DNA from: a virus
Reading direction: 5' to 3' (one strand)
Length of the DNA stretch: 36,446 nt
IMG/VR virus record: IMGVR_UViG_3300044568_004058
Coordinates: 1-36,446 of that record
In this document: positions 1-22,371 of the stretch, one piece after another
Layout: each line of letters opens with the position of its first letter
How positions within the stretch are numbered: position 1 is the stretch's first letter
The notes under the pieces: generated by a model
What the model was told of the DNA's origin: nothing
Seen by the model: only the letters and a program-made list of their open reading frames with translations
Databases searched by the model: none
Position numbers and translations under genes: made by a program

Positions 1-7
1 CATTCTT

Positions 8-208
8 ATGTCTTTAGAAGATATAAATAAAGAATTACATCAAATTATTATTCAAAAATTTTATTATGGAATGACAAATAAAGAGATTGGTCAAAAAAAC
101 GGCTATGGAAAAGAAGCGGCTCGAAAAAAAGTTAAAAAAGCCATCGAATTGTGCCAAGAAATTGTGTATAGTAATATGGGAAAAGGAACTTTAGCATCAG
201 GACAATAG
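8..208 (+). CDS. Sigma-region-4-like HTH protein, probably 5'-truncated by the window edge
   Basis: The visible 66 residues contain a helix-turn-helix of the sigma-70 region 4 / LuxR type: an acidic helix, then YYGMTNKEIGQKNGYGKEAA and a basic recognition helix (ARKKVKKAIE). The reading frame stays open to the left edge and no Shine-Dalgarno site is visible before the first ATG. The true start may therefore lie outside the window and this may be the C-terminal end of a larger protein. Possible roles are a phage sigma-like factor, another DNA-binding regulator, or a terminase-small-like HTH protein; the sequence does not separate these. It lies directly upstream of a virion-type gene, and a promoter-like motif sits inside its 3' end. 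Confidence in the HTH is good; in the function it is low. Confidence 0.55.
   Translation: MSLEDINKELHQIIIQKFYYGMTNKEIGQKNGYGKEAARKKVKKAIELCQEIVYSNMGKGTLASGQ
162..180 (+). promoter_or_regulatory. Promoter-like element TTGTGTATAGTAATATGGG
   Basis: This 19-base stretch matches the element in front of the HNH gene (TTGTGTATAATAATATGGA, about 18712-18730) at 17 of 19 positions. The preceding CAAGA is also shared, with a one-base offset. It lies 68-86 bases upstream of the 248-886 virion gene, inside the end of the preceding gene. A -10-like TATAGT is at 167-172, but there is no good -35 hexamer 16-18 bp upstream. This could be a phage-specific (for example late) promoter rather than a plain sigma-70 one. 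The assignment is inferred from recurrence. Confidence 0.4.
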
Positions 209-247
209 GAAATTAAGATTAAAACCATAAAAGTGAGGTAAATAGCT

Positions 248-886
248 ATGGTTCCAAATCAGTCAGTTAATCCGTATTTAAATAATACAGCGGGTAGCAC
301 CTATACAGCTCAGAGACAAGGTGGTACTATCGTTGGTTTAACTTCTGCTACAACGATAATTACAAAAGCAATTCTAGTTAAAGATATCAACACAAACGAT
401 ATCACAAACGACACCCTTCCAAAAGTATCTTCAGGTGCAAAAGCATACAATACAGCCAAGATTCTTTCTGCTGGAACTTTTGCATACAACGCTGCAAAGA
501 ATGGAACATGGGTATTAACTCGTGTTACAACAACTCTTGCTGGCGTTTCAAAAACTTTCTTACAGTCTATGGCGAATGTTGGATACGCTCCATCATTAGC
601 TTATTATGTAAGAAATAACTGGGTTGATACAACCAGTTTAATCCGCAAAATGCAACTTAGCTTTACTGGCTATGATGCTTCTGGTTCAGGTTATGCTGGA
701 AAGATTAAAGCCAGAACACCTTGGATCACAAGTCCAACTGCTACTGCTGGTACAGACTTTGGTACTTCATCATCTTTACCAAGCAGAGCTTATCCGGGCG
801 AATTGTACATCTTAACAAACTTTATTGATTACAAACCAGCTACAAGCTCAAATAAATATTACTATTCTCCAATTACTGGTAAGTGA
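248..886 (+). CDS. Putative virion structural protein (212 aa)
   Basis: No family is recognised with certainty. The protein is rich in Thr, Ser, Ala, Gly and Tyr and nearly free of Cys. It has a predicted beta-rich pattern and ends in a tyrosine-rich tail (YKPATSSNKYYYSPITGK), a composition typical of abundant phage structural or decoration proteins. The start is supported by a GAGGT Shine-Dalgarno site at 235-239, 8 bases before the ATG. The gene stands alone between a promoter-like element (162-180) and a strong terminator (906-934), an arrangement often seen for highly expressed virion genes. Codon choice is more GC-rich and regular than in neighbouring genes, which also hints at high expression. 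A virion role is inferred from composition and layout, not from homology. Confidence 0.5.
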   Translation: MVPNQSVNPYLNNTAGSTYTAQRQGGTIVGLTSATTIITKAILVKDINTNDITNDTLPKVSSGAKAYNTAKILSAGTFAYNAAKNGTWVLTRVTTTLAGVSKTFLQSMANVGYAPSLAYYVRNNWVDTTSLIRKMQLSFTGYDASGSGYAGKIKARTPWITSPTATAGTDFGTSSSLPSRAYPGELYILTNFIDYKPATSSNKYYYSPITGK

Positions 887-905
887 TTTCCTTTATTATT
901 AAGTT

Positions 906-934
906 GGGGTCGGGGAATCCCGGCCCCTTTTTTT
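906..934 (+). terminator. Rho-independent terminator after the 212-aa gene
   Basis: GGGGTCGGG (906-914) pairs with CCCGGCCCC (919-927) through nine pairs including one T-G wobble. The loop is GAAT and a run of seven T follows (928-934). The stem is very GC-rich against an AT-rich background. It closes the 248-886 transcript. The next gene has its own AGGAG site immediately after, at 935-939. Confidence 0.9.
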
Positions 935-950
935 AGGAGTATATCATATT

Positions 951-1385
951 ATGAGTAGTTTATTTAACTGGCATGAAGCATTACCAAATATTGGAGATTT
1001 CTTTAATAAAGTTGGATTTCCAATGGGCGTATGGTTGGTAACAGTATTTATATTGTATAAACTATTTTATACCATTGGTTATAAAGCATTGTCTAAATTA
1101 TGGAATAAAGTAGAGCCAATAATGGATGCGCACTTTGAACTAGTAACTAGTATGAAAGATAATCTTTCAAAGCAAACTGAGATTATGAGTGCAACAAATG
1201 TTCTTATTGAAACTAAACTTGATAAGCATACAATAATTTTAGAAGATCATAGCAAAGCTCTTGATAGGATGCTTAAAATGAGTGAAAAAAGAAATGAACT
1301 TCTTGAGCAAAATGGCTCAACTAAGAAATTAAAACCATCGCCCTCAAATAATGGATCGGTAGGAAATATTCATGGGACTAAATGA
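951..1385 (+). CDS. Holin-like single-TM protein with coiled coil (144 aa)
   Basis: A hydrophobic segment at about residues 22-45 (FPMGVWLVTVFILYKLFYTI) is a probable membrane helix. It is followed by a long amphipathic, charged region (about 55-115) with coiled-coil character and a basic, low-complexity C-terminus. One N-terminal TM followed by a cytoplasmic coiled coil resembles BhlA/UviB-type phage holin-like proteins and some phage membrane anchors. The ATG is preceded by AGGAG at 935-939, directly behind the terminator. No endolysin gene is visible nearby, so a lysis role is only a possibility. Its end overlaps the next ORF by 14 bases. Confidence 0.45.
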   Translation: MSSLFNWHEALPNIGDFFNKVGFPMGVWLVTVFILYKLFYTIGYKALSKLWNKVEPIMDAHFELVTSMKDNLSKQTEIMSATNVLIETKLDKHTIILEDHSKALDRMLKMSEKRNELLEQNGSTKKLKPSPSNNGSVGNIHGTK

Positions 1386-8504: not shown

Positions 8505-8938
8505 GTAAATACAAGTCTCCATCAACTGGAGACTTTTGTACTTCAGCACAATATGTTGCTGAATTAATTTGTCAGAAACTTGCAAAGCATGAAAAAGTAG
8601 GGACGCTCCCCTATAAGTTTTGGAATCTGCCAAAATGGAAAAAAATATATATTAGGCAAGTTTCGTTAGCAAATAAACTAATAAAAGAATACGGCGAAGA
8701 GTCTGTTATAAAATTTGTAAAGTCAAGTGCAGGTAAAAATACAATTTCTCTTGGAGCTAGAAATGTAAAAAAAGAAATTGAAAAAATTAAATTTGCTCTT
8801 GACAATACGCCAAAGCGTGATACAATTGAAATAATTGCGATTGAGCCACTTGAATTTAAACCAAGAAAATCATTTGGAACCAAAACGCTTGTAAATAGAT
8901 TGAAAGATATAGAAAGTGACATGAATAACAATGGATAA
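8474..8938 (+). CDS. Unknown protein upstream of RecA (154 aa)
   Basis: This basic, helical protein of unrecognised family includes KFWNLPKWKKIYIRQVSLAN and a Lys-rich C-terminal region. Its position directly before the RecA-like gene, with an 8-base overlap, suggests a recombination/replication-associated role, but nothing in the sequence proves it. A perfect hairpin (8513-8535) lies near its start, and the putative promoter for RecA (8799-8826) lies inside its 3' part. Confidence 0.5.
   Translation: MSGKKIQTALSKYKSPSTGDFCTSAQYVAELICQKLAKHEKVGTLPYKFWNLPKWKKIYIRQVSLANKLIKEYGEESVIKFVKSSAGKNTISLGARNVKKEIEKIKFALDNTPKRDTIEIIAIEPLEFKPRKSFGTKTLVNRLKDIESDMNNNG
8513..8535 (+). other. Perfect 9-bp hairpin near the start of the 154-aa gene
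   Basis: AAGTCTCCA (8513-8521) and TGGAGACTT (8527-8535) are perfect inverted repeats around the loop TCAAC. Only two more T follow, so it is a weak terminator at best. It could be an attenuator, an RNA processing or stability element, or chance within coding sequence. No function is assigned. Confidence 0.35.
8799..8826 (+). promoter_or_regulatory. Sigma-70-type promoter upstream of the RecA-like gene
   Basis: TTGACA (8799-8804) is exact. A 16-base spacer leads to TACAAT (8821-8826), a 5/6 match, with TG at 8818-8819 forming an extended -10. The expected start point is about 100 bases before the recA-like ATG at 8931. It lies inside the preceding gene. Prediction only. Confidence 0.55.
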
Positions 8939-9923
8939 AGATTTTCTTAAAAAATATGGCGATTACGTAACAACTGGCGAAAAAGTATTAGAAACTAAAA
9001 AAAGCTACAAAACTATCTCTATTAGTCCTGCAATTGATCTTGCTCTAGGAGGTGGTGTTAAAGAAGGCTCTTGGATGATTCTTTCTGGGCCACCAAAAGC
9101 TGGCAAGACAACCACAACTATGCAAATCATTGCCAACTGTCAAGCAGAAGGTCGAAAGATTATTTATCTTGATGTAGAGGGTCGGCTTAAAGAAATGAAC
9201 TTTGAAGTTCCGGGAATCGATCCATCTTTAGTGCAAGTAATTCGATCAGGAGACCAGCCATTACCAGCAGAAACATTTCTTGATATTGCAAGAAAGTTAA
9301 TATCTGAAAAAGAGAACGAAGGTTGTGTTCTTGTTATTGACTCTATTTCTTCCCTAATTCCTTCTCGTGATCTTGATGAAGATATTAGCGGCATGACTCG
9401 TCCGGGTTTGCCAAAGATTCTATCAGATTTTGTAAAAAAACTTGGTCAAACTGTACCAAACCAAAAGTGTCTTGTTATCATGATTACGCACATGATTACG
9501 AATACCAGTGGATATGGTAAGAGTAAAATGGCTGATGGCGGTGTTAAGATTCAATTCCAAGCCGACACGAGAATGGAAGTAAAAAGTGTTCAGCCTTGGG
9601 AATCTGCAAGCTCTAGTAAAGATCAAAAGAATGTCATTGGATTAAAGGTTACATGGGATATCCTTTGTTCATCTATTGGATCTCCTTATAAGACTTGCGA
9701 GAGTTGGATTAGATTTGGTCATGGAATCGACAAAGTGCAAGAAATTCTTATGATTGCAATCGATCTTGGTCTTATTTCAGTTGCTGGCTCATGGTACAAC
9801 CTTGACTTTATTGAATCTGAAAAAGTTAAGTTGCAAGGACAAGAGAAGGTATATAATTATTTAACTGAAAATCCAGAAGCATATAAAACGCTGGAGTCTA
9901 AAGTTAAGGAACTATTATATTGA
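8931..9923 (+). CDS. uvsX: RecA/UvsX-like recombinase
   Basis: This 330-aa RecA-fold strand-exchange protein shows Walker A GPPKAGKTTT (K59), the strand KIIYLDVEG with the catalytic-type Glu region, Walker B VLVIDSISSL, and a DNA-binding loop region around MTHMITNTSGYGKSKMADGG. It would form filaments on single-stranded DNA for repair and recombination-dependent replication. Its length and organisation are closer to phage UvsX/RecA-like proteins than to full bacterial RecA. It is followed, with a TTGA overlap, by a Vsr-like nuclease and then a coiled-coil protein, a recombination cluster. Bacterial RecA acquired by transfer is less likely, given the divergent loops. Confidence 0.9.
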   Translation: MDKDFLKKYGDYVTTGEKVLETKKSYKTISISPAIDLALGGGVKEGSWMILSGPPKAGKTTTTMQIIANCQAEGRKIIYLDVEGRLKEMNFEVPGIDPSLVQVIRSGDQPLPAETFLDIARKLISEKENEGCVLVIDSISSLIPSRDLDEDISGMTRPGLPKILSDFVKKLGQTVPNQKCLVIMITHMITNTSGYGKSKMADGGVKIQFQADTRMEVKSVQPWESASSSKDQKNVIGLKVTWDILCSSIGSPYKTCESWIRFGHGIDKVQEILMIAIDLGLISVAGSWYNLDFIESEKVKLQGQEKVYNYLTENPEAYKTLESKVKELLY

Positions 9924-10333
9924 ACATTATTGGATTAGATGGTAAAGAGTACTCTTGGATTCCTAGCAATAATATTGTAGAAACTGAACGTCGATCAGGA
10001 CCACATGCTAAAGCTAAGGATTTATTAAAAGAGCGTTATCCTAATGATCGAATACTAGAAGAGATAGTTTTGCCCGGAACAAAGACAAGTACAAGAAAAT
10101 CCACTTTAAAAGCGGATTTTTTTATTCCAGTTAGGGGACTAATCGTTGAAGTGCATGGCCGACAGCATACAGAGTTTAATAATTTCTTTTTTGCTAATAA
10201 GATGGAATTTTATAAAGCTCAAGCAAGAGATAAAGATAAAAAAACTTGGTGCGATCTTAATGAGTTTACACTAATAGAATTATTTGAAAATGAAACACTA
10301 GAAGAGTGGAAAGAAAAGCTATGGACGACATAG
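9920..10333 (+). CDS. Vsr/PD-(D/E)XK-like nuclease (137 aa)
   Basis: D66 in KADFFIP and E77/H79/Q82/H83 in VEVHGRQH form the metal site pattern of Vsr-like PD-(D/E)XK nucleases (DUF559-type). An N-terminal helix (AKAKDLLKERYP) precedes the site. The same arrangement, xDxxIP then E[IV]xGxQH, is found in the homing endonuclease at 28687-29463. The start is a TTG overlapping the RecA stop (TTGA), supported by AAGGA at 9906-9910. Its place between the recombinase and a coiled-coil protein suggests it processes DNA intermediates in recombination or repair. The target specificity cannot be read from the sequence. Confidence 0.7.
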   Translation: MNIIGLDGKEYSWIPSNNIVETERRSGPHAKAKDLLKERYPNDRILEEIVLPGTKTSTRKSTLKADFFIPVRGLIVEVHGRQHTEFNNFFFANKMEFYKAQARDKDKKTWCDLNEFTLIELFENETLEEWKEKLWTT

Positions 10334-12700: not shown

Positions 12701-14155
12701 ATGTCCCAAGCTATACTTGAAAATTTACCTGTAGAACGTGCTGTGCTGGCAGGAATTTGCCAGTATGGCTTGGAAGTATATGTTGATTTAGATTTTATAG
12801 ATGCTGATTATTTCTCTCACGAATTAAATCAAATTATTTTCAGTTGCTTGCAAGATATTATTCAGAATAACCAAAAGATTGAGTATCTTGCAATTTTTTC
12901 TGCCGCTCAAAAACTAGGAGTATTTGAACTTATTAATAAAAATACAGAAATGGGTTTTATTAGAAGTTTATTTAATTTTCCTATTAATAAAGATAATGTG
13001 CCAAAATTTGCAGCTAAGTTAGCAAAGTTAAAACTAGCTAGAGATATTAAAAAAGCAATCAAGCAATCAGAAAAAGCAATTGATAAAGTCACTGGCGATG
13101 AAGCAGTAGAAGATATTATCTCCTCTGTAGAAAAACCAATTACAGATATTACATTAAACGCATACAAAGAGTATAGTAATAAAACTATGCTTGTGGGTGA
13201 AAATATTGATGAATACGTTCAATTTCTTATTGATAACCCTACTGATTATCTTGGTATTCCTACCGGCCTTAATCGGTTTGATGAGGCTTGCGGAGGAGGT
13301 ATCAGACGAAAATCGGTCTGTTTAATTGGGGCAAGAACAGGTGTAGGTAAAAGTGTTATTTCTACAAACGTAGCTCTTCATGTTGCAAGTAAACTACACA
13401 TCCCCGCTTTATATCTTGATACCGAAATGGATATAAGCGACCAAAGAAATCGTATGCTGGCAAACTTGAGCGGAGTCGATATTAATGATATTGCTAAAGG
13501 TAAATTTGCTAAAAGTTTTATGGCGACAGAAAGTGTAAAAAAAGCAGCTCAACACTTAAAGGATATACCATATCATTATATGTCGATTGCAGGACAGCCA
13601 TTCGATAATATTTTAAATATTATTAAAAAATGGATTCATCAATATGTTGGATTTGACGAGAACGGTAAAACAAAAGATTGCTTAATTATCTATGACTATT
13701 TTAAATTAATGAGTAGTGCGGGACTTTCTGCCGCAATGCAGGAATATCAAGCATTAGGATTTCAAATTACTAAAATGAATGATTTTTGTATTCAATACGA
13801 TGTCCCTTGCTTGTCATTTGTTCAGCTTAATAGAGAAGAAGAAATTGCCCAATCAGATCGATTGCAATGGCTTGCAGCAACTGTTGCTAAGTTTCAAGTT
13901 AAAAATGATGAAGAAATTGCAGACGATGGCGATCAAAATGGAAATAGAAAAATTGTTTTCATTAAAACGAGACATGGTTCTGGGCTTGAGCCGGGAGACT
14001 ATATTAATGTAAAAATGCATGGATCTCAGGCGAAACTAACTGAATGGTATACCAGAAATGAATTAAAATCAGGAGCAGTAGATGACAACAGAAACGAAGA
14101 ACCGCCATTCGAAGAACGAGAAGATAACTCAGCAGAAGGTTTATTCGATCTGTAA
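12701..14155 (+). CDS. dnaB: DnaB-type replicative helicase
   Basis: This 484-aa hexameric 5'-3' helicase unwinds DNA at the phage fork. It has an N-terminal helical DnaB-N domain (about 1-110, LPVERAVLAGICQYG...), a linker, and a RecA-fold ATPase. Walker A is GARTGVGKSV (K217), the catalytic-type Glu is in YLDTEMD, Walker B is CLIIYDYFKLM, and VQLNREEE is the usual DnaB motif 4 region. KTRHGSG matches the arginine-finger region. The last residues are EGLFDL. The primase gene begins inside its 3' end (74-base overlap in another frame), so the two are made together. Confidence 0.92.
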   Translation: MSQAILENLPVERAVLAGICQYGLEVYVDLDFIDADYFSHELNQIIFSCLQDIIQNNQKIEYLAIFSAAQKLGVFELINKNTEMGFIRSLFNFPINKDNVPKFAAKLAKLKLARDIKKAIKQSEKAIDKVTGDEAVEDIISSVEKPITDITLNAYKEYSNKTMLVGENIDEYVQFLIDNPTDYLGIPTGLNRFDEACGGGIRRKSVCLIGARTGVGKSVISTNVALHVASKLHIPALYLDTEMDISDQRNRMLANLSGVDINDIAKGKFAKSFMATESVKKAAQHLKDIPYHYMSIAGQPFDNILNIIKKWIHQYVGFDENGKTKDCLIIYDYFKLMSSAGLSAAMQEYQALGFQITKMNDFCIQYDVPCLSFVQLNREEEIAQSDRLQWLAATVAKFQVKNDEEIADDGDQNGNRKIVFIKTRHGSGLEPGDYINVKMHGSQAKLTEWYTRNELKSGAVDDNRNEEPPFEEREDNSAEGLFDL

Positions 14156-15164
14156 TCAATTAGCAGATAAAATACATGCTTTGCTTGAAGCTCTTAATGT
14201 TGAATATATAGAATTTGAAAATCGTTTAGCTTTTTCCTGTCCTGTTCATGGCGGAGATAATTCAGGAGGAGCTTGCATATTTACTGATGGCTCAAAATCT
14301 AAAGGTAATTGGGTTTGCTGGACTCATTCATGTGAAAAAGACTTTGGAAAAAATCTAATTGGTTTTGTTAGAGGCGTTCTAAGTTATAAGAAAAATAAAG
14401 AAGTTAGTTTTATTGAAGCAATTAACTTTTGTTTGTCGTTTCTTGATAAAAAACTAATTGATATTCCAGAAGAAAAAATTCCAGAGAGTATTTATAATAA
14501 TCAAAAACTAATGGAAATTTTAACCAGAGAACCAGAAAAAGTAATTACAAATATTACTAGAGAACAGATTATAAAAAGCATTGAAATCCCCTCAAAATAT
14601 TATATGGAAAGAGGATTTTTAGCGGAAACTCTTGTTGTTTTTGATGTCGGTGAATGCTATAATTCTAATAAGCAGATGTATAATCGTGCAGTGGTTCCTG
14701 TTTATGATGAAGATCTAAATTACATAGGATGTGTTGGCAGATCGCTAGATGAAAGCAATAAAAAATATAAATGGATAAATAGTAAAGGATTTAAAAAATC
14801 TTTTTATTTATATGGAGTATGGAAAGCAAAACCATTTATACAAAAAACTTCAACAGTTATTCTTGTAGAGGGACAGGGTGATGTCTGGCGTCTTTATGAA
14901 GCGGGTATCAAAAATGCAGTTGGTATATTCGGATCAGATTTAAGTGAAGATCAATTAATAGCATTGGAAAAACTTGGTGCTATGAATGTAGTTATATTAA
15001 CTGATAATGACGAGGCTGGACAAAAGGCATCACAAGGAATTATCCAAAAGGGTGGAAGAAGATTTAATTATTTTACTCCAAAAATTTCAAAAAAAGATAT
15101 TGGCGACATGTCAATAGAAGATATCGAAAAAGAATTAAAACCTCAAATAGAAGGGCTATTTTAA
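14082..15164 (+). CDS. dnaG: DnaG-type primase (zinc finger + TOPRIM)
   Basis: This 360-aa DNA primase makes RNA primers. The N-terminal zinc finger is visible: C53PVH56 and C79WTH82 with C84 following. The TOPRIM domain has the catalytic Glu in VILVEGQGDVWRL and the acidic pair in ILTDNDEAGQKA. It is smaller than bacterial DnaG (about 600 aa) and lacks the C-terminal helicase-binding domain, as in other phage primases. The start at 14082 gives a 74-base overlap with dnaB; no later start keeps the zinc finger. The last residues are QIEGLF, resembling the end of the helicase (EGLFDL). Confidence 0.88.
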   Translation: MTTETKNRHSKNEKITQQKVYSICNQLADKIHALLEALNVEYIEFENRLAFSCPVHGGDNSGGACIFTDGSKSKGNWVCWTHSCEKDFGKNLIGFVRGVLSYKKNKEVSFIEAINFCLSFLDKKLIDIPEEKIPESIYNNQKLMEILTREPEKVITNITREQIIKSIEIPSKYYMERGFLAETLVVFDVGECYNSNKQMYNRAVVPVYDEDLNYIGCVGRSLDESNKKYKWINSKGFKKSFYLYGVWKAKPFIQKTSTVILVEGQGDVWRLYEAGIKNAVGIFGSDLSEDQLIALEKLGAMNVVILTDNDEAGQKASQGIIQKGGRRFNYFTPKISKKDIGDMSIEDIEKELKPQIEGLF

Positions 15165-15979: not shown

Positions 15980-17007
15980 TAACAACATATTTTAGAAGTT
16001 CTAGTCTAAATAACTGGAAATACTGTCAAATGCAGTATTTTATGACTTATGTTTTAGGACATCAATCGCCATCAGGAAAAAAAGCTGACTTAGGAACTAT
16101 AACCCATGCGGTATTTGAAACACTAGCACTATGTAAAAAAAGAACACAGTTTAATAAACGTAGCAATATGAAAATCACTCAAGAGCCTTTGGGTGATTTT
16201 TCTTTTACAGAAGAGCAGTTATATACTAGTGAATTTGTAAATTATATTCTTGGAAGAAGTTTTGACTATTATAAAACTAATTGTACTCATAACCAGTTTA
16301 ATCAAAAAGATTATGAATTTTGCTATAAAATGGTATGGGATACTTTAGCGTATAATAATGGACAATTTGACCCCCGTAATCGTAAAATTATTGATACAGA
16401 ACCACATTTCGATATTCCTATTAAGGAACCTTGGGCTAAATTTAGCTTCGCTGGACCGGATGGAGAAGAAATTTCTGGAAATCTTGCGATAAAAGGGACG
16501 ATTGATCTTGTAACTGAGCTGCCAGATGGTACAATAGAAGTGATCGACTGGAAAACTGGGCAGAGGTTAGATTGGGCCACGGGCGAAAAGAAGGACTACG
16601 AGAAACTTATGACAGATACTCAACTTCTTCTTTACCACTATGCTATTGGTAAATTATATCCTATGCATCGACACGCTTTAATGACTATCTTCTTTTGTCG
16701 TGATGGAGGTCCATTTACGCTTGCTTTTGATGAGCAGGATGATAAAAACTTCATAAAGACACTCGAAAAGACATTTAAAGAAATTACAATTAATCAAGCC
16801 CCTAAGCCAGTTTCAAAAGATCGAAACAATTTTAAATGTGAAAAACTTTGTCACTTTTATAAAACAGTTTGGCCCGGAACAAATAAAACAATGTGTCATC
16901 ACGTAGAACAGCAACTCTCTACTATTGGTATGGAAAAGACTGTAGCTACATGTTCTAGGCCGGGATTTGCAATTGGGACATATAAGGACCCCGGAGCAGT
17001 TGAATGA
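15976..17007 (+). CDS. Cas4/RecB-like PD-(D/E)XK exonuclease with Fe-S-type cysteines
   Basis: This 343-aa RecB/AddB/Cas4-type nuclease has the pattern GTITHAVFETL (His), IKGTIDLVTEL (Asp), IEVIDWKTG (Asp-x-Lys) and DTQLLLYHYA (QxxxY). C17 near the N-terminus together with C-terminal cysteines (CEKLC, MCHH and others) resembles the four-Cys Fe-S cluster of Cas4/AddB. It would degrade or trim DNA ends at replication or recombination intermediates, acting with the RecA-like protein. The start overlaps the preceding gene (ATGA), and the end overlaps polymerase (ATGA). Confidence 0.85.
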   Translation: MITTYFRSSSLNNWKYCQMQYFMTYVLGHQSPSGKKADLGTITHAVFETLALCKKRTQFNKRSNMKITQEPLGDFSFTEEQLYTSEFVNYILGRSFDYYKTNCTHNQFNQKDYEFCYKMVWDTLAYNNGQFDPRNRKIIDTEPHFDIPIKEPWAKFSFAGPDGEEISGNLAIKGTIDLVTELPDGTIEVIDWKTGQRLDWATGEKKDYEKLMTDTQLLLYHYAIGKLYPMHRHALMTIFFCRDGGPFTLAFDEQDDKNFIKTLEKTFKEITINQAPKPVSKDRNNFKCEKLCHFYKTVWPGTNKTMCHHVEQQLSTIGMEKTVATCSRPGFAIGTYKDPGAVE

Positions 17008-18488
17008 TTATTCCAGCTATTACAACTCACTATTCACTATCAAAGGGCTTTATCAAGCCAGAAGAGGCAGCTAAAAAGTGTAAAGACCTTGGCTATACTC
17101 ATTGCCTACTTGCTGATAATTCATTAAGTGGTGTGGTTGAGTTTTTTAGCTGTATGAAAAAAGAAGGCATAGTACCCATCATTGGTTGGAAAGTCGATGA
17201 TGGGCATTTTATTGCAAAAACACTAGAAGGTTATAAACTTCTTGTTAAATTATTCTCAGGCGAGAATATAATATATTATGATGAAGATCTTGAATTTTAT
17301 CCAGATGGTAGTCTTGAATTACTAGAAGTCTGCTATGCAGAAAAAAGAGATGCAATTCTCCATAGAATTGTTCTTTGTTCTGGGTTAAAAACTACGCTTA
17401 AAAAAGCAAAAGACATTGATCTTGGTGAATTTAAGAAATATTTTGAAAGTGATGACTACTCATTTGAATCAAGCAGAAATGCGCAAGTCTTCAATTTTAG
17501 CAATAATACAAAGTTAATTTCTGAACTAAAAGACTATACAATTTTTGCAAAGCCTAAACTTCCAAAAGTGGACTGTAAAGGTCAAACAGAAGAGGAATAT
17601 ATAACACAGTTATGTCGTGAAGGCTGGAAGAAAAAATTATCGTATTTAAAAGGAGAAAAAAGACAAGAGTATGGCGACCGTGTAAAGTACGAACTTTCAA
17701 TTATCAATGGCTTTGGCCTTGCGGGATATTTTTTAATTGTGCAAGATATTATCGCATATGTTAGAAATAATGGTTGGTTGCCGGGACCGGGAAGAGGTTC
17801 TGCTGGAGGTTGTTTAGTATCTTATCTTTTAGGCATTACAGAAATTGATCCAGTAAAATACGATCTACTATTTTCAAGGTTCCTTAATTCTGGTCGATTC
17901 AGCAAAGATAATATATCATTACCGGATATTGATATGGACGTTCCTTCTAATCATCGTGATGAAATCATTGAGTATCTTAAGAACAAATATGGTCATCAAC
18001 GAGTTTGTCAAATGATTACCTTTGGGCGATTGCAAGGGCGATCAGTAATTAAAGAAGTGGCTCGTATATATGGAGATTTATCATTTTCTGAGTTAAATGA
18101 GATCACTGAAAGCCTTCCGCCTGAGTCAAGTATTTCAGATGAACTTGAAGAAATGGATATAAAATCAGTTATTATCTGGACACTTGAAAATAAGCCCGAA
18201 AAATTAGGTAAATGGTGCAGACTAGTTAATGGAAAATTAACAGGAGAGTTGTCCGATCTATTCGACCTTGCTATAAGAATTGAAGGAACTTTTAAAAGTC
18301 AAGGAGTTCATCCTGCTGGTGTAATTATATCCAATGAAGATCTTCTTAATGATGCTCCGCTAATAAAAAATAAAAGCGGAAATAATGTAGTAGGTTTTGA
18401 AATGCATGATTTAGATAAAGTGGGACTAACTAAATTCGATGTCTTGGGAGTTAATCTTTTAGATAAAATAATGGAAATTAAAAAATGA
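17004..18488 (+). CDS. dnaE: DNA polymerase III alpha, N-terminal gene (PHP-like + palm)
   Basis: The first half of a C-family DNA polymerase, 494 aa. The N-terminal PHP-like region is short, and its first metal motif is degenerate (TTHYSLSKG where active PHP domains have HxH/HxD). The catalytic domain includes GPGRGSAGG, PDIDMD (catalytic D308 and D310) and VGLTKFDVLG (third catalytic D479). The gene stops 15 residues later, exactly where the polypeptide should continue into the fingers. The missing part is encoded at 20463-22037. All three catalytic Asp are on this piece, so it could not act without its partner. The stop overlaps the next ATG (ATGA). No intein motifs are present. Confidence 0.92.
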   Translation: MIIPAITTHYSLSKGFIKPEEAAKKCKDLGYTHCLLADNSLSGVVEFFSCMKKEGIVPIIGWKVDDGHFIAKTLEGYKLLVKLFSGENIIYYDEDLEFYPDGSLELLEVCYAEKRDAILHRIVLCSGLKTTLKKAKDIDLGEFKKYFESDDYSFESSRNAQVFNFSNNTKLISELKDYTIFAKPKLPKVDCKGQTEEEYITQLCREGWKKKLSYLKGEKRQEYGDRVKYELSIINGFGLAGYFLIVQDIIAYVRNNGWLPGPGRGSAGGCLVSYLLGITEIDPVKYDLLFSRFLNSGRFSKDNISLPDIDMDVPSNHRDEIIEYLKNKYGHQRVCQMITFGRLQGRSVIKEVARIYGDLSFSELNEITESLPPESSISDELEEMDIKSVIIWTLENKPEKLGKWCRLVNGKLTGELSDLFDLAIRIEGTFKSQGVHPAGVIISNEDLLNDAPLIKNKSGNNVVGFEMHDLDKVGLTKFDVLGVNLLDKIMEIKK

Positions 18489-18694
18489 ATGAAAAAATAA
18501 GCTATGCTGAAGTTATAATAAAAGGAAATGATATAAATTACAAAGATATTTCTTTATGTGATTTAAGAAATTATGTTCCTTGGTATCGAAATAAAAAAAA
18601 TGGTATTTATCAAGTTCACAGTAATAAATTTTCACAAATATATTATAATTTGGATGACGCAATTAATAAATTTTTGGAATTAAAAGGAAAATAG
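18485..18694 (+). CDS. Unknown small protein between the polymerase halves (69 aa)
   Basis: The ATG overlaps the stop of the N-terminal polymerase gene (ATGA). Its 69 residues (ISLCDLRNYVPWYRNKKNGI and a C-terminal helix) match nothing I recognise. It does not resemble the start of the C-terminal polymerase gene and shows no intein or endonuclease motif. It could be part of the unit carried with the HNH gene, a leftover of it, or an independent small gene. Confidence 0.5.
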   Translation: MNEKISYAEVIIKGNDINYKDISLCDLRNYVPWYRNKKNGIYQVHSNKFSQIYYNLDDAINKFLELKGK

Positions 18695-18723
18695 TTGCCT
18701 GTTACAAGACTTTTGTGTATAAT
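18695..18723 (+). promoter_or_regulatory. Promoter directly before the HNH homing endonuclease
   Basis: TTGCCT (18695-18700, 4/6 match) and TATAAT (18718-18723, exact) are 17 bases apart, ending 27 bases before the ATG at 18751. The -10 region TTGTGTATAATAATATGG is nearly the same as the element at 162-180, and TGTGTATAATA recurs on the minus strand near 31735. The promoter lies in the short gap after the 69-aa gene. The homing endonuclease thus probably has its own promoter inside the polymerase operon. Confidence 0.6.
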
Positions 18724-18750
18724 AATATGGAAACAGAAAAGGAGAATTTA

Positions 18751-19545
18751 ATGAAAACAAAAGTCTGTAACGTGTGTAATATTGAAAAATCAGAATCTGA
18801 ATACTATAAAAAAGGTTCTGGATTACAATATAGATGTAAACAATGTGTAAAAAATCATATTAGGTATGAAAAATGTCCTAATTGTGATAGACAAAAAAGA
18901 TTAGAAGCTGAATTATGTTCTATATGCTCTAAGCAGTCTCAGAGAGAAGTATATTCAGAAGAATTAATAAATCAAGTAATTGATCTTTATACTTCAGGGC
19001 TATCTACTTGGAAAATTGCCAACCAATTAGGTAGTTATCAGGTGAAGATAGTAAGAATTCTTCACAGAAATAATATTAAGTTAAGAAATAATGATTTTGT
19101 AAATAACGGTAAATATAGAGAAGATAATCCAGCTTGGAAAGGATACAAATTAATAAGTGGGGGATATTTTGCGTCAATTAAAAGATCCGCAGATTCCAGA
19201 AATCTAGAATTTGATATTAATATTGAATATCTAAATGAACTATTTGAGCTTCAAAATGGGAAATGCGCAATATCTGGATTAGACATTATACTTCCTAGAA
19301 GCGATGAAAGTAGATCAACTGGAGAATATACTGCATCATTAGATCGGAAAAATTCTAATTTAGGTTATATTAAAAATAATTTACAATGGGTTCATAAATG
19401 GGTTAATAAAATGAAGCAAAATTTACAAGAAGATGAATTTTTATATTTATGTAGCTTGATAACAGATAATAATAAAGATAAAATAAAAGAAGTTGATATT
19501 AATACTTTAATGCAATATAAAAGGAGAAATAAAATTGGCACTTAA
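18751..19545 (+). CDS. HNH homing endonuclease with two zinc ribbons and an HTH (264 aa)
   Basis: N-terminal cysteine pairs C6/C9 with C29/C32 and C42/C45 with C56/C59 form two zinc ribbons. A resolvase-like HTH follows (about residues 69-105: LINQVIDLYTSGLSTWKIAN...). The HNH nuclease is around residues 185-225: GKCAISGLDI, then ASLDRKNSNLGYIKNNLQW and HKWVNKMKQ, typical of free-standing phage homing endonucleases. The ATG at 18751 is chosen for its AAAAGGAG site (18737-18744) and promoter; the longer GTG-initiated form is unlikely. It sits between the two parts of the DNA polymerase gene. Its 3' end contains the AAAAGGAG ribosome site used by the exonuclease gene. Mobility is inferred from family knowledge. 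Confidence 0.88.
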   Translation: MKTKVCNVCNIEKSESEYYKKGSGLQYRCKQCVKNHIRYEKCPNCDRQKRLEAELCSICSKQSQREVYSEELINQVIDLYTSGLSTWKIANQLGSYQVKIVRILHRNNIKLRNNDFVNNGKYREDNPAWKGYKLISGGYFASIKRSADSRNLEFDINIEYLNELFELQNGKCAISGLDIILPRSDESRSTGEYTASLDRKNSNLGYIKNNLQWVHKWVNKMKQNLQEDEFLYLCSLITDNNKDKIKEVDINTLMQYKRRNKIGT

Positions 19546-20242
19546 TACGTATCGTGACTATTGTGTTATGGACCTAGAAACCTCTGGTAAAAACCCTAAT
19601 GGTTGTCAGATCACTCAAATTGCGGCTGTGGTAATCCACGGCAAGAAATTGACTCTCCAGCCCGGAGGAATCTTCAACATTGAAGTAAGGCCCGAATTTG
19701 ACGACGAGAAGGCCATTGCTGCCGGATTCGATCCAGTAGAGCAAGAGGCTCTTGATATAACACGTAAAACTCGTGAACAGCTCGAAAAGGCGATTGGGCC
19801 AAAAGAAGCGTGGAGTCAGTTTGTAAACTTTGTAAATAAGTTCAACGCTAAAGGCAGTCCTTATTTTGCACCAATTCCCGTAGGATATAATATTAATAAT
19901 TTCGATTTACCAATAGTCGAAAGATACTGTCGTATTTATGGACCAAAAGAGGAAAAAACTGGAAGACAAAAATTATTTAATCCTATTTTTAAAGTTGATA
20001 TGATGGATAATCTATTTATGTGGTTTGAAGATCATAGCGCTGTTCAAAAATTAAATTTAGGTTATTTACGAGATTTCTTTGGGTTTCCAGAAAAGAGCAA
20101 AGCAAATGCTCACGATGCTCTTTATGATGTTGTAGATACTGCAAATCTTTTTATTAAGTTTCTTAAATATCACAGAAAACACAGCGAAAAAACTAAATTT
20201 GAAAAATCATTTGCCGACATTAAAATGGATATTGAACTATGA
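19535..20242 (+). CDS. DnaQ-type 3'-5' proofreading exonuclease (DEDDh)
   Basis: This 235-aa exonuclease has the DEDDh motifs: D13/E15 in VMDLETSG, the middle Asp in YNINNFDLP, and His/Asp in ANAHDALYDVVDTA. It is the likely proofreading (epsilon-type) subunit for the polymerase, whose own PHP domain looks inactive. The start is a TTG at 19535 with AAAAGGAG at about 19518-19526, inside the end of the HNH gene; the two genes overlap by 11 bases. It lies between the two halves of the polymerase gene. Base use is more GC-rich in the first 200 bases than later. Confidence 0.9.
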   Translation: MALNTYRDYCVMDLETSGKNPNGCQITQIAAVVIHGKKLTLQPGGIFNIEVRPEFDDEKAIAAGFDPVEQEALDITRKTREQLEKAIGPKEAWSQFVNFVNKFNAKGSPYFAPIPVGYNINNFDLPIVERYCRIYGPKEEKTGRQKLFNPIFKVDMMDNLFMWFEDHSAVQKLNLGYLRDFFGFPEKSKANAHDALYDVVDTANLFIKFLKYHRKHSEKTKFEKSFADIKMDIEL

Positions 20243-20466
20243 AAATTAAATCAATTGAAAAATATTCGCATTTCATAATTGAAATGGAAGATGGTAAAAT
20301 TTATAAATATGTCCCGGACCAATCAAAGCAAACTCATTGGGGAGAGTGGTTTCTTGATTTTGACGGTCATTATATAAAAGTGATTAATGAAGAAAAAATT
20401 AATCAACTAAAAGACGCTTATATTGAACATGTTGACTATATAATCTCTTGTGGAGCATACCAGTGA
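20239..20466 (+). CDS. Unknown small protein before the C-terminal polymerase gene (75 aa)
   Basis: ATGA overlap with the exonuclease at its start and GTGA overlap with the C-terminal polymerase gene at its end make it part of a coupled operon. The sequence (YSHFIIEMEDGKIYKYVPDQ...) looks like a compact beta-strand domain with an acidic helix. No family is recognised. It might help assemble the split polymerase, but this is a guess from position only. Confidence 0.5.
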   Translation: MKIKSIEKYSHFIIEMEDGKIYKYVPDQSKQTHWGEWFLDFDGHYIKVINEEKINQLKDAYIEHVDYIISCGAYQ

Positions 20467-22037
20467 CTCAAGATTTTGATATTGATAATTTTGAAGACAT
20501 TGCAACATGGGAATTAATTAGCAGTGGCAAAACTAAAGGTGTATTCCAGCTAGAATCTAAATTGGGTTCTAGTTGGGCCAAGCGAGTTAAGCCACGTAAT
20601 ATTGAAGAGCTGGCAGATTTAATTTCAATTATTCGTCCGGGAACTCTTGAGGCGGAACTTGAAGGAAAGTCTATGACTAAACACTATGTTGATCGCAAGT
20701 GGAAAATAGACGAGACTAAATATTTACATTCTGCCCTTGAGCCATTACTTGGTAGTACATATGGCATTATCGTATATCAAGAACAGGCGATGAAAATTGC
20801 AACTGCTCTTGCTGGATTTACCCCAGAAGAAGCAGATTCGCTTCGCAAGGCGATGGGTAAAAAAGATGCTGCTCTTATGAATGAAGTGGGACAGAAATTT
20901 ATTAAAGGCTGCGAAGCAAAAGGAATTGTTGATGCAGCATCCGCAGCACAAATCTTTAACTGGATTCAGGCTTCAGCCCGATATTCATTTAATAAAAGCC
21001 ACGCAGTTGCTTATGCTATTAATTCTTTTCGCTCTGCTTACTGTAAAGTCCATCGTCCATTAAAATTCTATGAGAAATATCTTAATCATGCTCATAACAA
21101 ACCGGATAAGCAAAAGGAAATAAAAGAACTTATTATGGATGCTAAATTATCTGGCATTGAAGTTTACCCTCCAAGATTAAATAATTTACATAGAACTTTT
21201 ACTCGTGATGGAAGCAAAGGTATTATATACTTTGGATATAGCAATGTAAAAAGTGTTGGTGAGGGAGAACAGGAAAAAATCGAAGCGGTTATTACTGATG
21301 CGGTTAAAAGTTCAAATAAGCCGATTTCAGAATTTAACTGGCTTGATTCTTTGTTTTATATCGGCAATGAAATTAAAAAGAACGCATTTATTTCACTTAT
21401 TAGCGTTGGAACTTTTTCAGGAAAAAACAACGCTTTAACTAGAAATCAAATGATGTTTGAATTTGATATTTGGTCAAAATTAACAGTAAAAGAACAGACT
21501 TGGATTATCAATAATCGAAACAGTAGTAATTGCTTAAAAAGTTTAGTTCAAAAAATGATAAATGAAAATGAGAAAATCAATTCTAGAAGAATGGCGTCTG
21601 TATTAGATATTTATCAAGCTCTTGAAAATCCGCCATATTCTTTGGAAGACGATTATGCATGGATAGCAGAAACAGAACAAAAATTAATGGGCTGTGCTTT
21701 AACATGCTCTACTGTTGATATGTCATGTAGTGATGTTAATATTACTTGTGCAGAAATTGCAAATGGTGAAGTTAAGAGTATAAAAGATGCTTGTTTAGGA
21801 GTTAGAATTAATGAAGTAAAAGAATATACGATTAAACGTGGAAATTCAATTGGAAAAATCATGGGATTTGTAAGTGCAGAAGACTGGAGCGGGGAGCTTG
21901 ATTCCATAACATTTTTTTCTGATGAATTTGAAAAATATAAAAAGTTGCTTTTTATCGGAAACACGCTATTATTATATGGTGAGGTTCAAGAGAAAAGGGA
22001 CAAATCCTTTGTAGTTAAACATGCAGAACAAATTTAG
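20463..22037 (+). CDS. dnaE: DNA polymerase III alpha, C-terminal gene (fingers to OB domain)
   Basis: The second half of the C-family polymerase, 524 aa. It starts with the continuation of the palm/fingers (WELISSGKTKGVFQLESKLG, IVYQEQAMKIATALAGFTPE, FNKSHAVAYAINSFRSAYCK), then a helix-hairpin-helix-type region and a C-terminal OB-like domain (VRINEVKEYTIKRGNSIGKI... to the end). The start is set at GTG 20463, overlapping the preceding stop (GTGA) with TGGAG at 20451-20455; the longer TTG at 20448 is less likely. Together with 17004-18488 it makes about 1018 aa, somewhat shorter than E. coli alpha (1160). The FNKSH site used by cyanobacterial split inteins is intact and uninterrupted here. 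Confidence 0.92.
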   Translation: MTQDFDIDNFEDIATWELISSGKTKGVFQLESKLGSSWAKRVKPRNIEELADLISIIRPGTLEAELEGKSMTKHYVDRKWKIDETKYLHSALEPLLGSTYGIIVYQEQAMKIATALAGFTPEEADSLRKAMGKKDAALMNEVGQKFIKGCEAKGIVDAASAAQIFNWIQASARYSFNKSHAVAYAINSFRSAYCKVHRPLKFYEKYLNHAHNKPDKQKEIKELIMDAKLSGIEVYPPRLNNLHRTFTRDGSKGIIYFGYSNVKSVGEGEQEKIEAVITDAVKSSNKPISEFNWLDSLFYIGNEIKKNAFISLISVGTFSGKNNALTRNQMMFEFDIWSKLTVKEQTWIINNRNSSNCLKSLVQKMINENEKINSRRMASVLDIYQALENPPYSLEDDYAWIAETEQKLMGCALTCSTVDMSCSDVNITCAEIANGEVKSIKDACLGVRINEVKEYTIKRGNSIGKIMGFVSAEDWSGELDSITFFSDEFEKYKKLLFIGNTLLLYGEVQEKRDKSFVVKHAEQI

Positions 22038-22047
22038 GAGTTGAATA

Positions 22048-22371
22048 ATGAATGTTTGTTGTTTTATTGGAAAATTGGTTAATGATCCAGAGCTAAGGGA
22101 AATCAATGAAACTTATGTTGTAAATTTTTCTTTAGCCGTAGAGGACTATAGAAAAGACAAAGAAGGTGAAAAGCATAGAAGAATTGATTTTTTAGATTTT
22201 GAAGCATGGGATAGCGGAGCAACTACTATCGCCAAACATTTTAAAAAGGGCGATATGATGGCAATTGAAGCAGAAGCTAGGCAGCACAAGTGGACATCTA
22301 ATGATCAAAAGCGTCAAAAAATTGTTTTCAGAGTAAAAACTTTTAAATCTTCAGGATGCAAAACGGAATAA
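22048..22371 (+). CDS. ssb: Single-stranded DNA-binding protein, OB fold (107 aa)
   Basis: The protein opens MNVCCFIGKLVNDPELREIN, the typical SSB first strand, and continues with VVNFSLAVEDYRKDKEGEKH and RRIDFLDFEAWDSGA, also characteristic of bacterial-type SSB. It covers single-stranded DNA at the fork. It ends at GCKTE and so lacks the long linker and acidic DDxPF tip that recruits partners in bacterial SSBs. GGAG at 22037-22040 lies 7 bases before the ATG. It follows the C-terminal polymerase gene after 10 bases and is the last gene of the replication block. Confidence 0.88.
   Translation: MNVCCFIGKLVNDPELREINETYVVNFSLAVEDYRKDKEGEKHRRIDFLDFEAWDSGATTIAKHFKKGDMMAIEAEARQHKWTSNDQKRQKIVFRVKTFKSSGCKTE

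Follow-up and report, generated by a model that had tools for sequence, protein, structure and literature searches.

How does a phage copy its genome when the gene for its replicative DNA polymerase lies in two pieces with other genes between them? The catalytic subunit of a replicative polymerase is usually thought to be a single chain. The question is raised by the virus record IMGVR_UViG_3300044568_004058 of IMG/VR, analyzed here over its whole stretch of 36,446 bases (the window), where DNA polymerase III alpha (DnaE) is encoded inside a replication cluster by an N-terminal gene (N, 17004..18488, plus strand, 494 amino acids) and a C-terminal gene (C, 20463..22037, plus strand, 524 amino acids). 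Four genes lie between the two: a small conserved open reading frame (ORF), here called s69, an HNH gene, a proofreading exonuclease gene and a second small ORF, s75; the open reading frames thus bear out the original prediction, which had described this split and the contents of the insert. We consider it highly probable that uncultured tailed phages of bacteria, forming a widespread clade, make their replicative polymerase as two polypeptides from an operon of the order N, exonuclease, C; to judge from the sequences, the long persistence of this arrangement makes it very probable that it is functional.

Each half is recognizable as part of a bacterial enzyme of the C family. N spans the PHP, palm and thumb regions (PF07733, 2.3e-73; PHP, 5.5e-12), and C the fingers, the helix-hairpin-helix (HhH) region and the oligonucleotide-binding (OB) fold (PF17657, 1.5e-43); the Pfam matches over cut-off were PF07733, PF02811 and PF17657, with HHH_6 and OB below cut-off. 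All three catalytic aspartates (D308, D310 and D479) are in N, where they align with the Escherichia coli motifs MPDFDVD and KFDFLG, and, as had been predicted, N ends 15 residues after D479; the catalytic residues are invariant across 45 N sequences. The frame of C is open from a TTG at 20448, which would give 529 amino acids, and its most likely start is the GTG at 20463, which has a GGAG at 20452-20455, 7 nt upstream, and gives the 524 amino acids first assigned to it.

AlphaFold models of the halves, each folded singly from 45-row alignments, have a mean predicted local distance difference test (pLDDT) score of 91.4 for N and 91.9 for C, and both align to DnaE structures with Z of 20-27 (VIA-align). 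The N model matches E. coli alpha (2hnh) over 5..570 (Z 24.1, 459 residues aligned, 3.4 Å) and also, over its whole length, a Thermus-type alpha over 7..633, while the C model matches 5fku_A over 581..1073 (Z 21.7, 455 aligned, 9.0 Å) and 3e0d_A over 639..1121 (Z 20.8, 432 aligned, 4.2 Å). The root-mean-square deviation of 9.0 Å on the full-length E. coli fit arises because the domains are differently placed; the fingers part of C alone fits 2hnh 582..910 at 3.7 Å. About ten residues of the E. coli numbering are gone at the cut, just past the last palm element, so that C does resume the chain with a few residues missing, as the first reading had it. The cut falls in a short, surface-type connection, so that both halves consist of whole domains. 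By domains, modeled fold and catalytic aspartates the window polymerase is a bacterial Pol III alpha, with predicted polymerase activity.

The layout had been taken for a peculiarity of this phage, and its relatives contradict that view. An IMG/VR scan with N gave 43 loci confirmed by tblastn, and scans with a profile for each of N, C and exonuclease gave up to at least 80 loci apiece; merging loci that share 300-base stretches left 142 locus groups among the matches listed. N and C are encoded by distinct ORFs of the same strand in 112 of the 142 groups, and an exonuclease frame lies between them in all 112, the window's own group included. None of the 22 groups left incomplete by contig ends or short fetches has N directly followed by C. 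The other eight groups, in which the N and C profiles fall in one frame, were set aside: L011, a chimera whose own locus is split; L063, the chimeric tail; L064, L065 and L066, named phages cut elsewhere; L039, a distant, intact polymerase; and L218 and L272, to which we return below. N or C is partial in 17 of the 112 groups, and no frame fusing the exonuclease to either half was seen among the groups examined. A frame error as the source of the split is unlikely, because another contig, L003, is 100% identical over all six parts and the same layout recurs in the 112 locus groups.

Among contigs of metagenome-assembled genomes (MAGs) with a match to the exonuclease, the order N, exonuclease, C was present in five of seven, the other two having a weak exonuclease match only; the five were binned with Flavobacteriales (twice), Chitinophagia, SAR202 and Alphaproteobacteria, bins being weak evidence of host. 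Named phages yielded relatives of N in 1334 records, all below 60% identity and at most 36.5% identical among the 40 matches listed, and a single weak match to the exonuclease, in Bacteroides phage SJC03 (23.5%); no cultured member of the clade was seen among these matches to N and the exonuclease.

Within the 112 split groups the site of the cut is also constant. N ends 15-43 residues (median 18) past the third catalytic aspartate in the 107 groups matched by motif, the motif being missed by one letter in N of five groups and in C of one. From the exonuclease stop to the start of the C profile the median distance is -0.5 nt, and in 76 of the 112 groups the opening of the C frame coincides with that stop or precedes it; such spacing suggests coupled translation. 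In a single contig, represented by L300 and L201, about 6.1 kb separate N from the exonuclease, and the order survives this gap, so that the slots can fill without breaking it. Two variations in the halves themselves were observed. An extra segment containing a CGC motif and a later cysteine precedes the fingers in 18 of the 112 C halves (L028, L029, L034, L037 and 14 others), mostly on early branches, and the N half of L134 (5066-6709) is interrupted by a single in-frame stop, at a position between SAAG and LISYL that is occupied by cysteine in relatives, by recoding, mutation or sequence error.

Could the halves nonetheless be joined after transcription or translation? The original prediction had seen neither intein nor intron at the junction, and our searches likewise found no intein and no known intron there. 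Rfam gave no match at the gathering cut-off in the window or in sets of 6 and 13 loci, nor even at E≤1 on three short stretches, one of them 18300-20700 of the window; Pfam and NCBIfam searches found no intein family on N or C, and the FNKSH site of the window polymerase is intact, as had been stated. The C-terminus of N and the N-terminus of C are short, without the extensions that intein halves would need, and in L104-like loci the frames of N, exonuclease and C abut or overlap, leaving no room outside coding sequence. The gap is, moreover, occupied by an exonuclease under purifying selection (see below). Relatives do bear such elements elsewhere in the gene: the split-clade polymerase of L271 (3306-5577 and 6833-8830) has intein-like segments at GPGRG/SAAG and FNK/SH, the former split, with a short ORF between and an N-terminal splicing region over the NCBIfam cut-off, the latter below cut-offs, and in L331 (3200-4935), an Alphaproteobacteria-binned contig, a LAGLIDADG ORF interrupts N at MP/DIDID. 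Bacillus phage Jayan (L066, 4478-5006) has an insertion at the same codon region as L331, its close relative PS1 being intact. Against these examples stand the short ends, the abutting frames and the occupied gap, and joining of the window's halves by an RNA intron or by protein splicing appears very improbable.

That the two genes are dead or repurposed fragments, in a phage relying on its host or on a second polymerase, is hardly credible. Wherever the synonymous rate (dS) is unsaturated, N, C and the exonuclease have a ratio of nonsynonymous to synonymous rates (dN/dS) of 0.007-0.105 (dS was computable in 20 of 27 comparisons, the single-strand binding protein included among the rows, and saturated in the other 7), and by this measure all three are under purifying selection; s69 gave 0.05 and 0.15 in two pairs. 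The invariant catalytic residues of N and the location within a helicase-primase-single-strand-binding cluster argue in the same direction. In the window's record and 17 records of relatives (eight of the 18 at least 150 kb long) neither DNA_pol_A nor DNA_pol_B (PF00136) was found and there is one fingers domain apiece, so that the second polymerase gene that could have made these fragments superfluous did not appear, a strong result, not a final one, for records whose completeness is not established. One apparent second polymerase, in L012, was rejected: this contig is chimeric, matching L026 at 100% identity for 14067 bases and continuing with a bacterial-type dnaE, the switch (14067-14623) lying within the glycosyltransferase frame. 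Two points weigh against a two-piece replicase. The negative Rfam result at the cut is a weak control, since the intron-like insertions in L331 and L066 also gave no match, so that the lack of non-coding space in the tightest loci is the stronger argument against joining of the RNA, and the records, as fragments, leave room for another polymerase or for use of the host's.

Since an HNH gene lies between the halves, and such genes are known to split phage genes (PMC2988022), the polymerase gene of this phage might have been broken by a homing endonuclease, as in nrdA of Aeromonas phage Aeh1. The HNH gene, which is of endonuclease VII-like type (18751..19545, plus strand; PHROG 3322, 8e-23; PHROG 1035, 1.8e-22) has a frame open from a GTG at 18715 and a likelier start at the ATG at 18751, with AGGAG. 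Its relatives occur in both slots, between N and exonuclease in three groups and between exonuclease and C in 11, with one group having both, 13 in all. The 99 groups that lack the family are split all the same, with the exonuclease in place. In L013 an HNH gene of 65% identity occupies the window's slot, and near relatives of L013 are equally split without it; in 14 groups the exonuclease is the sole ORF of at least 40 amino acids between the halves, although the gap of L080 could hide a missed small ORF. Breakage by HNH invasion in this phage is therefore rejected as highly unlikely, and the first reading, which set the locus against the frame of endonuclease invasion, finds no support for that frame. 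Because the order N, exonuclease, C is found in 112 of 112 groups and the HNH family in 13, the split is, by its distribution, old and shared by the clade, and the window's HNH gene a later insertion between s69 and the exonuclease that did not cause the present split. It may still be that the original split was the work of an endonuclease that later disappeared. A promoter-like sequence, TTGCCT-17-TATAAT (18695-18723), stands just ahead of the HNH gene, as is common for free-standing endonucleases; with 19 promoter-like sites in the scan versus 17.5 expected, this one may be due to chance.

The history of the split is further informed by the two relatives set aside above. In L218, an 80 kb contig, the polymerase is a single chain of 1144 amino acids with an s69-type ORF, the exonuclease and an HNH gene just upstream; the chain contains both halves at 47-55% identity, which makes N and C parts of one enzyme. 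An unsplit relative adjoining the same exonuclease, proposed earlier as a check on the split, thus exists. A second contig, L292, is 92% identical over residues 7-348, shares the upstream order of L218 and ends short of the joint. In the population formed by L272 and five further contigs, palm and fingers are joined and are followed by an s69-type ORF, the exonuclease and, as a piece of its own, the OB end; one of these six contigs stops short of the exonuclease. The intact state is accordingly represented by one contig and the re-cut state by one population.

Split polymerases form one clade (100*), with L218 and L272 inside it, in trees of 118 and 52 rows. Together with a third tree of 38 rows, these omit 12 of the 112 groups, exclude 15 of the 17 partial groups along with L271 and L280, and include a few rows from later fetches. 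On the polymerase tree the split arose once, and in all three trees, rooted on outside sequences, L218 falls within the split clade under several starred branches; in those of 118 and 52 rows L272 neighbors the lineage of the window, and L218 is placed close to L150. Approximately unbiased (AU) tests in which rows were forced outside the split clade gave p 0.0384 for both, 0.0472 for L218 and 0.0393 for L272, and p 0.0274 for L218 after long branches were removed (38-row tree), values that are marginal, uncorrected for number and obtained for groups named after the tree was seen. Because the intact L218 and the differently cut L272 fall inside the split clade, the trees indicate that the halves were probably rejoined once or twice after an ancient split, with a second cut in L272. 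A tree of three other genes (exonuclease, RecB-like nuclease and glycosyltransferase) makes L218 and L272 sisters (95*) and so disagrees with the polymerase trees, for which reason one rejoining and two are indistinguishable. The converse history, in which the intact layout of L218 is ancestral and was split once later with no rejoining, we regard as rather unlikely: the post hoc tests are marginal, the N half of L218 resembles most split lineages to much the same degree (38-55%), and the three-gene tree, for which L034 was chosen as root, is silent on the rooting, all of which leave this history some weight, whereas three polymerase trees with outside roots nest L218 among the split forms.

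If the split is ancient, how would the enzyme work? As the original prediction reasoned, and as our analysis supports, it would have to assemble from two polypeptides. N would supply the PHP, palm and thumb and all three catalytic aspartates, C the fingers, HhH region and OB fold, and most likely the translated halves bind non-covalently into an active polymerase. The gene between them (19535..20242, plus strand, 235 amino acids from a TTG start with AGGAG upstream) has matches to PF00929 (2.3e-10) and to PHROG 192 (1.2e-25), the family of DNA polymerase exonuclease subunits. Its active-site residues D13, E15, D124, H193 and D198, invariant in 11 sequences, mark it as a DEDDh 3'-5' exonuclease of the DnaQ/epsilon type, and we infer that this protein, made between the halves, joins the polymerase as a proofreader in the form of a separate subunit. 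The E. coli counterpart, epsilon, attaches to alpha at the PHP region of the latter. Here PHP is in N, the first product, and in the boldest step of this scheme the order N, exonuclease, C would suit co-translational assembly. Tentatively, one may go further and envisage an obligate three-part replicase in which selection acts on the gene order as such: the exonuclease would attach to N while N is still nascent and C is yet to come, and a proofreading module would thereby be inserted between palm and fingers with no covalent bond. Such a state would be reversible, L218 having been rejoined and L272, on the same branch or another, re-cut at a different place with the exonuclease again inside.

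The two small ORFs of the insert differ in their distribution. The s69 gene (18485..18694, plus strand, 69 amino acids) overlaps the stop of N with its start (ATGA), and its family is present in 71 of the 112 split groups, always between N and the exonuclease; it accompanies the exonuclease even in L218, L292 and L272, and no match of weight to it was found in Pfam, PHROGs or NCBIfam. The s75 gene (20239..20466, plus strand, 75 amino acids), which overlaps both the exonuclease stop and the C start, has a family confined to the window's own group (one of 112), and an unrelated-looking ORF of 71 amino acids occupies its slot in L010. The replication cluster around these genes runs in the order DnaB-like helicase, primase, deoxynucleoside monophosphate (dNMP) kinase, RecB-like exonuclease, polymerase, single-strand binding protein and glycosyltransferase, the gene following C being that for the single-strand binding protein (22048..22371, plus strand; PHROG 44, 1.1e-21). 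Elsewhere in the window a second gene of HNH or homing-endonuclease type (9920-10333) directly follows a UvsX-like recombinase gene (8931-9923).

Through divergence to about 40% identity, an entire clade thus seems to have relied for its replication on a Pol III alpha in two pieces, and natural rejoined and re-cut forms serve as comparisons. Three questions become directly testable: how palm and fingers are held together, whether the order of the operon guides assembly and whether split enzymes revert to one chain. Nature also supplies here a site at which a polymerase could be split to make it switchable, and the locus can serve as a marker of an abundant group of uncultured phages. In the open-licence literature, as distinct from subscription papers and outside preprints, which our survey did not cover, we found no earlier description of neighboring N, exonuclease and C genes.

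Several known systems share parts of this arrangement. Cyanobacterial DnaE is likewise encoded by two genes; its cut lies at FNK/C, within the fingers, and a split intein rejoins the parts. Here the cut is at the palm/fingers boundary, there is no intein and FNKSH is intact. In PolC of Firmicutes a DEDDh exonuclease domain is inserted in the PHP region of one chain. The exonuclease lies within the polymerase coding sequence in both PolC (NCBIfam PRK00448) and the present clade, where a gene of its own, located between palm and fingers, encodes it. DnaE is in two frames in the Cbastvirus phages phi13:1 and Larrie and in Bacillus phage Jayan, but those frames are cut near the DxD motif, at about 364-369 of the N profile, with no exonuclease between them. 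According to the account of group 2.2 jumbo phages, these encode a minimal split Pol III alpha in distant genes beside a family B polymerase (Iyer et al., 2021; PMC7824862), likewise a phage Pol III alpha of two proteins likely to reconstitute one enzyme. That enzyme is described there as a minimal core without other Pol III domains, whereas in the window everything from PHP to OB is present, in genes adjacent around the exonuclease, and no family B polymerase was found in the 18 records. Split DNA polymerases are reported for OM43 phages MEP401 and MEP402, and a split PolB with a putative split intein for phage MIJ3 (PMC10580990, PMC6892783); as here, two genes encode the polymerase and a small ORF or an HNH gene separates them, while MIJ3 differs in its polymerase family and its putative split intein. 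Finally, nrdA of Aeh1, the gene 60/39 topoisomerase of T4 and the split gene 43 of Aeromonas phages (PMC2988022) are also essential phage genes that are split and whose product is assembled from pieces, with an endonuclease or untranslated insert at the break and intact relatives. In the clade described here, by contrast, which is a deep one, the split is the norm, and the gene resident between the halves is that of the proofreading exonuclease.

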